This document shows positions 16,747 to 19,900 of a DNA stretch of 45,051 nt, one piece after another (the stretch's first letter is position 1; every line of letters starts with the position of its first letter). The position numbers and the translations under genes were made by a program. The notes beneath the pieces are model-generated. The model was given only the letters and a program-made list of their open reading frames with translations, made no database searches and was not told the origin of the DNA. This DNA comes from Bacillota bacterium (GTDB lineage Bacteria > Bacillota > UBA4882 > UBA10575): positions 1 through 45,051 of the forward strand of contig JAAYGU010000148.1 in NCBI GenBank assembly GCA_012727535.1. Reading direction: 5' to 3'.

Positions 16747-17184
16747 TTGAGTCGAGGACGTTTATACCGGTCCACGCAGGAAAGGATGATTGCTGGGGTG
16801 GCCGGGGGATTAGCTGAATATTTTGGGATCGATGTGGTGATTGTACGGCTATTATGGGTCTTAGCCTTTTTTTTCGGAGGTGGGATCTTTGCTTATCTAC
16901 TAGCCTGGATTGTCATTCCGGAACAGAAATTTACCTCCTCTCCGGAAGAGGAAAAGGCCGATACAATGCCCACTCATACTCCGCCTGACCGAGATGTTCA
17001 GGAAAATCGGTGGCGGATCGGGGGTTTTATCCTTATTTTTGTTGGCCTGATTTTTTTACTCCGTGAATTAATCCCATTTAGCTTTCACCGTTTCACTCTG
17101 CCCCTTTTACTCATGATCTTGGGTGGGGTGCTTTTGATGCGTGGTTTGAGAAGGGAAGAAGATCGCGAAGCGACGGATGACTAA
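16747..17184 (+). CDS. PspC-domain membrane protein with C-terminal LiaI/LiaF-like helices
   Basis: A 145-residue membrane protein. Residues 4-62 form a PspC domain (RLYRSTQERMIAGVAGGLAE, then a membrane helix around VVIVRLLWVLAFFFGGGIFAY). A charged linker (about 63-87) follows, then two membrane helices (IGGFILIFVGLIFLL and LPLLLMILGGVLLM) resembling the N-terminal part of LiaI/LiaF-type cell-envelope proteins. The family is linked to envelope-stress sensing, but no partner (PspA, LiaRS) is nearby, so its role here is unknown. The start is a TTG at 16747 with a perfect AAAGGAGG upstream. Its stop overlaps the stop of the convergent cyclo-ligase gene by four bases. Confidence 0.82.
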   Translation: MSRGRLYRSTQERMIAGVAGGLAEYFGIDVVIVRLLWVLAFFFGGGIFAYLLAWIVIPEQKFTSSPEEEKADTMPTHTPPDRDVQENRWRIGGFILIFVGLIFLLRELIPFSFHRFTLPLLLMILGGVLLMRGLRREEDREATDD

Positions 17185-17750
17185 ACAAAGGTAATAATTC
17201 GTTCTTCAGTAATGACCAGATCCATACTGATATCATGCGCTTCAGCAGGTAAACAAGGCGTAACCTGCAGTTCATAAGCCAGTCCGATTTTCACTGCAAC
17301 GGAGCGAGCCAGATAACGATCGTAGTATCCTGCTCCCCGCCCCAACCGCCTACCTTGGAGGTCAAAGGCTAATCCGGGTACAAAAAAGAGATCGATTTGT
17401 TCTAGGGGGCAGAGTTGGCCCTGGAGCGGTTCTCTGATGCCATAAACCCCCGGCTGTAAGGAACTGAGCGTCTCCATTCTTCGAAACTCCATTGTCCGGG
17501 TTGAGCGGTTCACGACCGGCAGCACTACCCAAAAGCCACGTTCCTGCAGAACAGTCAATAAGCGGGTCGTATCGACTTCATTCCCAAAGGAAGCATAAGC
17601 AGCAACTGTTCGGACATTCTTTAAGACCGGCAAACTGAGCGCTTGTCCATAAATTAACCTGCTTTTCGCTTCAACCTCCGCTTTGGTCAGTTGATTAAGC
17701 TCCGCCGTATAATAGCGGCGGAGCGATTTTTTGTCAGATCGCTTCTCCAT
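17181..17750 (-). CDS. 5-formyltetrahydrofolate cyclo-ligase
   Basis: The enzyme (YgfA/FAU, MTHFS) uses ATP to convert 5-formyl-THF to 5,10-methenyl-THF and so recycles a folate storage form. The 189-residue length is typical. The signature LGRGAGYYDRYL (about residues 136-147) is the ATP/substrate loop, preceded by DLFFVPGLAFDLQGRRLG; YASFGNEVDT lies in the N-terminal half. AGGAGGAG precedes the ATG at 17750. It lies downstream of the 6S RNA gene on the same strand. In E. coli the 6S RNA gene ssrS is also followed by the cyclo-ligase gene ygfA, a notable parallel. Its 3' end overlaps the PspC gene tail to tail by four bases. Confidence 0.93.
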   Translation of the reverse strand: MEKRSDKKSLRRYYTAELNQLTKAEVEAKSRLIYGQALSLPVLKNVRTVAAYASFGNEVDTTRLLTVLQERGFWVVLPVVNRSTRTMEFRRMETLSSLQPGVYGIREPLQGQLCPLEQIDLFFVPGLAFDLQGRRLGRGAGYYDRYLARSVAVKIGLAYELQVTPCLPAEAHDISMDLVITEERIITFV

Positions 17751-17775
17751 TAACCGCTCCTCCTCTGCTTGACCA

Positions 17776-17826
17776 GCTGATCGTGCTCCATAGACCTGGT
17801 GTGCAGTTCTTGCTGGGGCGATCAGC
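17776..17826 (-). repeat. Inverted repeat in the 5' leader of the cyclo-ligase gene
   Basis: GCTGATCG (17776-17783) and CGATCAGC (17819-17826) form a perfect 8-bp pair separated by 35 bases, located between the end of the 6S RNA and the Shine-Dalgarno of the cyclo-ligase gene. It could structure the leader or a processed intermediate of a 6S/cyclo-ligase cotranscript. No known motif is recognised. Confidence 0.4.
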
Positions 17827-17876
17827 CGCTTCCTCCGTAAGGCAAAAAAACGTCAGTATTAAACCGGTAGGAATAG

Positions 17877-18064
17877 AAAAAAACCCCGCCGTGTCGTTTC
17901 AACTGAAGGTTACCTGAACCCGCCTCTCGCAGGTGGGTGCCTCCCGGTTGCTTTGTGTGTCCTTCTAGATAAAGGCTTACACGCCACAACCGAAGTACAG
18001 CTCCCTAGGTAAATGTGTTGGTTCAAAACATCAGCTTGATCACGCACACAGCAGGGTTTTTATC
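17877..18064 (-). ncRNA. ssrS: 6S RNA
   Basis: About 188 bases between aspS and the cyclo-ligase gene have the architecture of 6S RNA, which binds the sigma-A RNA polymerase holoenzyme as a promoter mimic. The 5' end ACCCTGCTGTGT pairs with the 3' end ACACGGCGGGGT as a 12-bp closing stem with two G-U pairs, directly followed by a seven-T run. Inside, CGGTTG pairs with CAACCG to form the apical arm. TTGAACC can pair with GGGTTCA, and ACCC-A-CCT / AGG-C-GGGT forms a small hairpin in the 3' central region. An extended -10 promoter lies immediately upstream. Location beside aspS/hisS matches Bacillus bsrA as I recall it, and the cyclo-ligase neighbour matches E. coli. The identification rests on structure and context, not on a covariance search. 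Confidence 0.75.
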
Positions 18065-18071
18065 TATCAAA

Positions 18072-18101
18072 ATAATATCACAAAAGGGCTTGTTTGTGCA
18101 A
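18072..18101 (-). promoter_or_regulatory. Promoter of the 6S RNA gene
   Basis: The minus strand shows TTGCAC (18101-18096), an 18-base spacer and TATTAT (18077-18072) with an upstream TG that makes an extended -10. Transcription would start near 18064, at the 5' edge of the 6S closing stem. Confidence 0.65.
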
Positions 18102-18109
18102 GGTCTGGA

Positions 18110-19900
18110 TTAAGCCTCTTCTTGCCTCTTCTTTCCAAGAACGATCTGTAACTCCTCTAATTGCTCGCGCTCGACCGTAGAGGGGGCCATGGTTAACAAG
18201 CAAGTGGCACCGGTCGTCTTCGGAAAAGCGATCACTTCACGTAGGCTGTTCGCACCGGATAAGAGCATGACGAGACGGTCCAAACCGAGGGCGATCCCCC
18301 CGTGCGGCGGCGTCCCGTACTCAAACGCCTCCAGCAAGAACCCAAATTTCTCCTGAACCAGTTCCGGGCTTAAACCCAAGACTCGAAAGAGTTTCTCCTG
18401 GAGCGGGCGTTGGTGTATCCGGATGCTCCCCCCTCCCAATTCCGTTCCATTCAAGACCAGATCATAGGCATTCGCCCGGACCGCGAGCGGATCAGAGTCC
18501 AATAATGCGCTGTCTTCCGGGAGCGGAGAGGTAAAGGGGTGGTGGACCGCGACCAACCGCTGCGCTTCCTGGTCAAACTCGAACAAGGGGAAGTTGATCA
18601 CCCAAAGCAGATTATACTGGTCTGCGGGGATTAAATTCAAGCGCTGCGCAAATTCCAGGCGCAAAGCGCCGAGGGCTGTTAAGGCCAGTTTGGGGTCTTG
18701 ATCGGCGATGAGCACAATTAGATCGCCCTCTTTCGCTTCCATCCGTGAAATAATCCCGTCAAGTTGTTCGGGGGCGAAGAATTTAGCGATTGGTGATTTG
18801 ATTCTACCTTCGGTCAGCGCCAGGTAAGACAGGCCCTTGGCCCCGTACTTGACAGCGATCTTTGATAATTCATCCAGTTCGCGCCGGGAGTATTCTCCAC
18901 AGCCCGGAGCCGTCAGGGCGACCACTTTTCCCCCGGCCGCCAGCACTTTTTGGAAGACGGCAAATTCAGAGGCGGCGACGAGCACTGAAATGTCGACTAA
19001 CTCGAGGCCAAACCGGGTATCCGGCTTATCGCTGCCATACCGGTTCATCGCTTCCTGGTAATCCAGGCGCGGAAACGGGCGGGGAAGCTCAATCCCTTTG
19101 ATTTCTTTAAAGAGGAAGGCCATCATCTCTTCCATTAACTCCAGAACCGCCTCGCGCTCAACAAAGGACATCTCCAGATCGATCTGGGTGAATTCCGGCT
19201 GGCGATCAGCCCGGAGATCCTCATCCCGAAAACACCGCGCGATCTGAAAATACTTTTCCATCCCGGCTGCCATCAACAACTGTTTAAAGATCTGCGGTGA
19301 CTGGGGTAAGGCGTAAAACTTACCGGGATTAACCCGACTGGGCACTAGGAAGTCCCGTGCTCCTTCCGGAGTACTCCGGGTCAGCATGGGGGTTTCAATC
19401 TCCCAAAAATCTTTTTCGTCCAAAAAGTCACGGATTAATTTCGTGATCCGATGCCGCAGGGCGATATTCCTTTGCATCTCCGGCCGGCGCAGATCCAAAC
19501 AGCGGTGGCGTAAGCGCAAGGTTTCATCGACGTCGCTACCGCGTTCATCGACATAGATCGGGGGTGTTTTCGCCGGATTGAGGATTAGTAATTCTTCGGC
19601 GTAGACTTCCACTTCACCGGTGGCCATCTCCGGATTGATCATCTCTTTTGGTCTCTGTTCGACCCGGCCTTTGACCATGATCACAAACTCATTGCGTATG
19701 GCTTCCGCTTGTTGGAACAGAGTGGGGTTATGCTCCGGATGAAAAACAACCTGTACTATTCCTTTACGGTCGCGGAGATCAACAAATAAGACTCCGCCTA
19801 AGTTACGATAACGATTGACCCAGCCGTTGAGGCAGACGGTTTTTCCGGCTTCGGTTCGTTTTAGTTCTCCACAATAATGGGTTCTGGTCCAAGCTAACAA
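18110..19900 (-). CDS. aspS: Aspartyl-tRNA synthetase (bacterial type)
   Basis: AspRS charges tRNA-Asp (and tRNA-Asn if non-discriminating, which I cannot tell from sequence alone). At 596 residues it has the bacterial layout: an N-terminal OB-fold anticodon-binding domain (about 1-110), the class II catalytic core with motif 2 ([20 protein letters not shown]), a GAD insertion domain in the middle, and the C-terminal GGGSIRIHQ and motif 3 [13 protein letters not shown]. The start is a TTG at 19900 with AGGAGGG six bases upstream. It lies 13 bases after hisS, the usual hisS-aspS pair, and upstream of the 6S RNA gene on the same strand. No terminator is apparent before the 6S promoter. Confidence 0.97.

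Follow-up and report, generated by a model that had tools for sequence, protein, structure and literature searches.

Introduction

When bacterial growth stops, RNA polymerase is blocked by a small RNA known as 6S RNA. In Bacillus, the gene for B. subtilis 6S-1 RNA is one that we take to lie after aspS, and our literature search found no paper joining aspS with 6S terms. The 6S RNA of E. coli, according to the title of a 2011 paper by Chae, is reportedly ended by Rho-dependent termination.

In the available part of PMC9130861, which cites Barrick 2005 and Wehner 2014, ygfA is said to adjoin 6S in alpha- and gamma-proteobacteria and in some beta- and delta-proteobacteria or Firmicutes. An excerpt of PMC4064990 describes the ssrS-ygfA link as highly conserved, with Coxiella likewise having 6S upstream of ygfA. 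Several Firmicutes carry two 6S copies, as stated in the accessible portion of PMC8414754.

Here we analyse a stretch of 45,051 nucleotides (the window) from a Bacillota bacterium, in which an earlier note, made from the sequence alone, had placed a 6S RNA gene at 17877-18101.

Results

In an Rfam covariance scan, positions 18060-17879 on the minus strand matched RF00013 (6S/SsrS) over the entire model (1-187 of 187) with 109.5 bits (E 2.5e-21), compared with a gathering score of 46.4 bits. The search with this model that the earlier note had proposed as a check was thus passed, and its identification of the locus was upheld: the RNA lies inside the span given, and the remainder of that span includes the promoter. 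Within the window, no further Rfam family passed its own gathering score, and a search for tRNA and tmRNA genes gave none. The features of the locus, in the direction of transcription, are as follows.

18110..19900, minus strand: aspS, aspartate--tRNA ligase, the upstream neighbour (NF001750.0, 865 bits, cut-off 443)
18072..18101, minus strand: promoter, TTGCAC, 18-nt spacer, TGA-TATTAT (extended -10), from a scan and family conservation
17879..18060, minus strand: 6S RNA (SsrS), aspS-linked copy (full-length RF00013 match)
18017..18031, minus strand: predicted product-RNA template, 5′ side of the central bubble and adjoining helix (alignment to the 6S layout)
17877..17883, minus strand: seven U after the closing stem, read from the sequence; likely intrinsic terminator
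17181..17750, minus strand: 5-formyltetrahydrofolate cyclo-ligase (MTHFS; ygfA type), the downstream neighbour (TIGR02727.1, 159.4 bits, cut-off 84.9; PF01812)

The locus is a standard bacterial 6S RNA gene, and the annotation is correct but ordinary. The explanation that best accounts for the data as a whole is that, of two 6S RNA genes in this genome, it is the one with the higher score and most likely the principal copy, a reading to which we assign a probability of about 0.98.

Folding of the RNA from 18064 to 17872 gave -76.3 kcal/mol (z -5.67), and none of 200 shuffles was as good. The minimum-energy fold of this single sequence pairs the central bubble in a manner partly unlike the Rfam structure. 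In the latter, the closing stem has 17 pairs, arranged as 14 plus 3 with a one-base bulge between them; the earlier note was therefore right that a closing stem is present, although not about its length, which it gave as 12 bp. Two of the 50 Rfam pairs are non-standard in the window's sequence.

Covariation was measured in an alignment of 37 distinct sequences, made up of the window's own plus a single sequence from each of 36 further genomes (41 searched). Two of these sequences do not directly follow aspS: that of G017, which has hisS in this position, and that of G037, in which aspS is 1351 nt away. Mapped on the window sequence, the Rfam pairs form six helices, in which 86.3% of 1841 cells are standard pairs. 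Changes on both sides were seen in 30 of 50 pairs, a number reached by none of 500 shuffles (mean 18.2), which ignore relatedness. Sliding the partner by 1-3 columns lowered pairing to 42-47%, as opposed to 86.3% for the true structure, a comparison in which a structure fitted to one row is favoured over slid versions anyway. Three pairs (columns 68-137, 71-136 and 97-112) are unpaired in most of the 37 sequences, and the structure taken from the window sequence alone is therefore not right in every detail. GGGAG, CCCACCT and GAACC-AC blocks are invariant in 17 family sequences that represent both copy types. As judged from sequence, the RNA has the canonical 6S fold of closing stem, central bubble and apical arm, and the internal pairings previously likened to the 6S layout hold.

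At the 5′ end, the promoter at 18101-18072 carries TG before TATTAT, as the extended -10 element proposed earlier would have it, and transcription is therefore expected to start near 18064. From this point to the end of the U run is 188 nt, the approximate length predicted beforehand; the RF00013 match itself covers 182 nt. The promoter scan reports another register (TGCACA-17-TATTAT, 9 of 12 plus TG). Three promoter-like sites, including the 6S promoter, occur on the two strands of 17600-18300, compared with 0.5 (sd 0.8) in shuffles. In 13 of the 15 aspS-linked family copies compared, the best site is built likewise, with a TTGC hexamer and with TG in front of a TA...T hexamer; in G014 and G004 a site built in this way is not the best one. 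For the 13 copies, shuffled upstream stretches equal the site score in 0 to 28 of 200 cases (2 of 200 for the window), and because shuffles reach such scores, the case for the promoter rests more on conservation than on single scores.

At the 3′ end, GGGG is followed by seven U at 17883-17877, which agrees with the T-run that had been noticed directly after the closing stem; the first of these U's are paired as well, with the A run at the 5′ end. The U run is likely an intrinsic terminator, to judge from these letters. This end is absent from the terminator scan, which covers only short hairpins with loops of 3-8, because a closing stem followed by a U run is no short hairpin.

The template for product RNA synthesis was assigned to the 5′ side of the bubble by position and sequence. 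Alignment to the 6S layout puts its predicted first base at the C at 18017, and the product RNA would be 5′-GUUGGUUCAAAACAU. All 15 aspS-linked family copies carry the template GAACCAAC and share the predicted start GUUGGUUC. The B. subtilis 6S-1 product RNA is given as GUUCGGUCAAAACUA in the accessible part of PMC12005410, and the predicted RNA is identical to it at 11 of 15 positions. The hallmarks of product RNAs, as listed in the available text of PMC8414754, are an A beside the start, GG at positions 5/6 (4/5 in Gram-negatives) and AA at 9/10. Those of A and AA are found in the predicted RNA, whereas its GG is at 4/5, the Gram-negative position, in contrast to 5/6 in the LAB consensus of the same source. 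GTP is named as the product-RNA starter of B. subtilis in an excerpt of PMC8876501, and this fits the predicted G start here.

The same genome contains a second, diverged RF00013 match with 62.7 bits, at G000:C65:12084-12263 (= L002:1501-1680). It sits between a SleB-type hydrolase gene accompanied by a small gene and an SbcD-like phosphoesterase gene. The hydrolase passes PF07486 and falls short of the SleB cut-off in NCBIfam; the phosphoesterase likewise reaches its Pfam threshold and is below the SbcD cut-off; and the small protein has no family match in NCBIfam or Pfam. Among the nine copies of this second type, the hydrolase and the small gene are upstream in eight (not in G004), and the SbcD-like gene is downstream in six; the G001 contig ends 260 nt after the RNA, and no SbcD-like gene was found downstream in G005. 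The closing stem of the second type is made of other pairs than that of the aspS-linked type. Its template, GAACCUAC, is present in 9 of 9 copies and predicts a product RNA starting GUAGGUUC, so that the predicted products of the genome's two copies differ at one of the first eight bases. Upstream sites of the nine second-type copies are weaker, being matched by 8 to 73 of 200 shuffles.

As the second copy also exceeds the gathering score, it might be the working 6S RNA, and the window copy a silent or decaying paralogue; this is extremely improbable and was ruled out on score, promoter and conservation, since the window copy scores far higher (109.5 vs 62.7 bits), retains a promoter-like site and is of the type found in 15 of 16 family genomes, compared with 9 of 16 for the second type.

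The neighbours of the window copy were identified by NCBIfam equivalog models, both over cut-off, which confirms the aspS and cyclo-ligase flanks named in the earlier note. The 6S-MTHFS link was mapped over 41 genomes and 11 named loci. With the genome of the window included, 6S matches were obtained in 39 of the 41, and neighbours were counted for the best-scoring copy in the 38 where it was placed. An aspS match ends within 500 nt upstream of 6S in 35 of 38: 15/15 in the window's family, 10/11 in others of the class and 10/12 outside the class. The misses are G017 in the class and G031 and G037 outside it. For MTHFS, sought with PF01812, the start is no more than 1.5 kb downstream in 25 of 38 genomes, namely 15/15 of the family, 10/11 of others of the class and 0/12 outside. 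The one miss in the class, G028, has MTHFS on another contig; of the 12 genomes outside the class, G029, G037 and G038 gave no PF01812 match. In G017 (L038), where hisS is upstream of the 6S RNA, MTHFS lies 928 nt downstream, and the 12.2 kb examined contain no aspS match.

A 6S match was obtained in six of the 11 named aspS loci and in each case lies downstream of the aspS gene; the six include Lysinibacillus (L060) and Desulfofundulus loci, and one of them (L063, 46.8 bits) is barely above the cut-off. In two, L056 and L058, a match to MTHFS comes next; the L056 contig is probably identical to one in G001, so that L056 and L005 are not independent. The Lysinibacillus locus, which extends 4 kb past aspS, has no MTHFS match. 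The nearest named contig by aspS (88% identical) is 'Bacillota bacterium isolate JPNG_maxbin.050'.

A structured cis-acting 5′ leader controlling MTHFS, rather than a free 6S RNA, would account for an MTHFS gene that starts 128 nt downstream on the same strand and is linked in 25 of the 26 placed genomes of the class. However, the RF00013 match is full-length and the U run comes after the closing stem. The deciding observation is that in 10 of the 12 genomes outside the class the RNA is still next to aspS, and none of the 12 has MTHFS nearby; for this reason we rejected the leader, which we regard as having almost no chance of being correct. Transcription running on into MTHFS, as at ssrS-ygfA in E. 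coli, would supplement a 6S RNA gene and would not be an alternative to it.

Two further observations concern the MTHFS region. A 10-pair hairpin with a T run on the plus strand occupies 17699-17724, within early MTHFS codons; on the coding strand it would be a hairpin near the start of the MTHFS message. A PspC-domain gene at 16747-17184, on the strand opposite to MTHFS, converges on it; in the 1.1-1.5 kb downstream that was examined, 9 of the 15 family loci have a PspC match there.

Discussion

For a 6S RNA gene at this locus, general 6S biology suggests the following scheme. The RNA would mimic an open promoter, accumulating as growth slows and occupying the housekeeping sigma-A RNA polymerase. 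Rising NTP levels on outgrowth would let the polymerase transcribe the 5′ side of the bubble from the C at 18017, giving a product RNA about 9-14 nt long that starts with GTP and has the predicted sequence GUUGGUUCAAAACA. Its synthesis would open the adjoining helix, and the polymerase would be released. The second, diverged copy probably works alike under other conditions.

A more elaborate proposal is that, in this class, the 6S promoter drives 6S and MTHFS together as a conserved pair of genes, coupling exit from dormancy, through product-RNA polymerase release, to mobilisation of stored 5-formyl folate, while a different stage is served by the second, diverged 6S next to a gene of the spore-cortex-hydrolase type. 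We consider this unlikely.

The finding contributes one 6S RNA annotation to a draft Firmicutes genome and leaves knowledge of 6S RNA itself unchanged. The double neighbourhood described in the earlier note, Bacillus-like for aspS and E. coli-like for ygfA, is real, but the ygfA side of it was already known from some Firmicutes, going by the available part of PMC9130861. Since the ygfA-6S link in Firmicutes and two-copy Firmicutes are both already in print, this is an ordinary annotation. Across the class, as far as it was sampled, the aspS and ygfA neighbourhoods coincide at a single locus and provide material for dating the 6S-ygfA link.

Compared with known systems, the window copy belongs to the same fold class as B. 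subtilis 6S-1 RNA (bsrA) and shares with it a G-started product RNA, identical at the 11 of 15 positions noted above (PMC12005410, accessible part); it differs in its diverged sequence and in having MTHFS as its downstream neighbour. As in E. coli, where 6S (ssrS) is directly upstream of the cyclo-ligase gene ygfA on the same strand (an excerpt of PMC9130861 among the sources), the RNA here precedes MTHFS, although in this case a U run closes the RNA gene and the upstream gene is aspS. Like those Firmicutes with a second 6S copy, such as the 6S-2 of B. subtilis (PMC8414754, in the portion available), this genome carries two, and its second copy is set apart from theirs by its SleB-type and SbcD-like neighbours.
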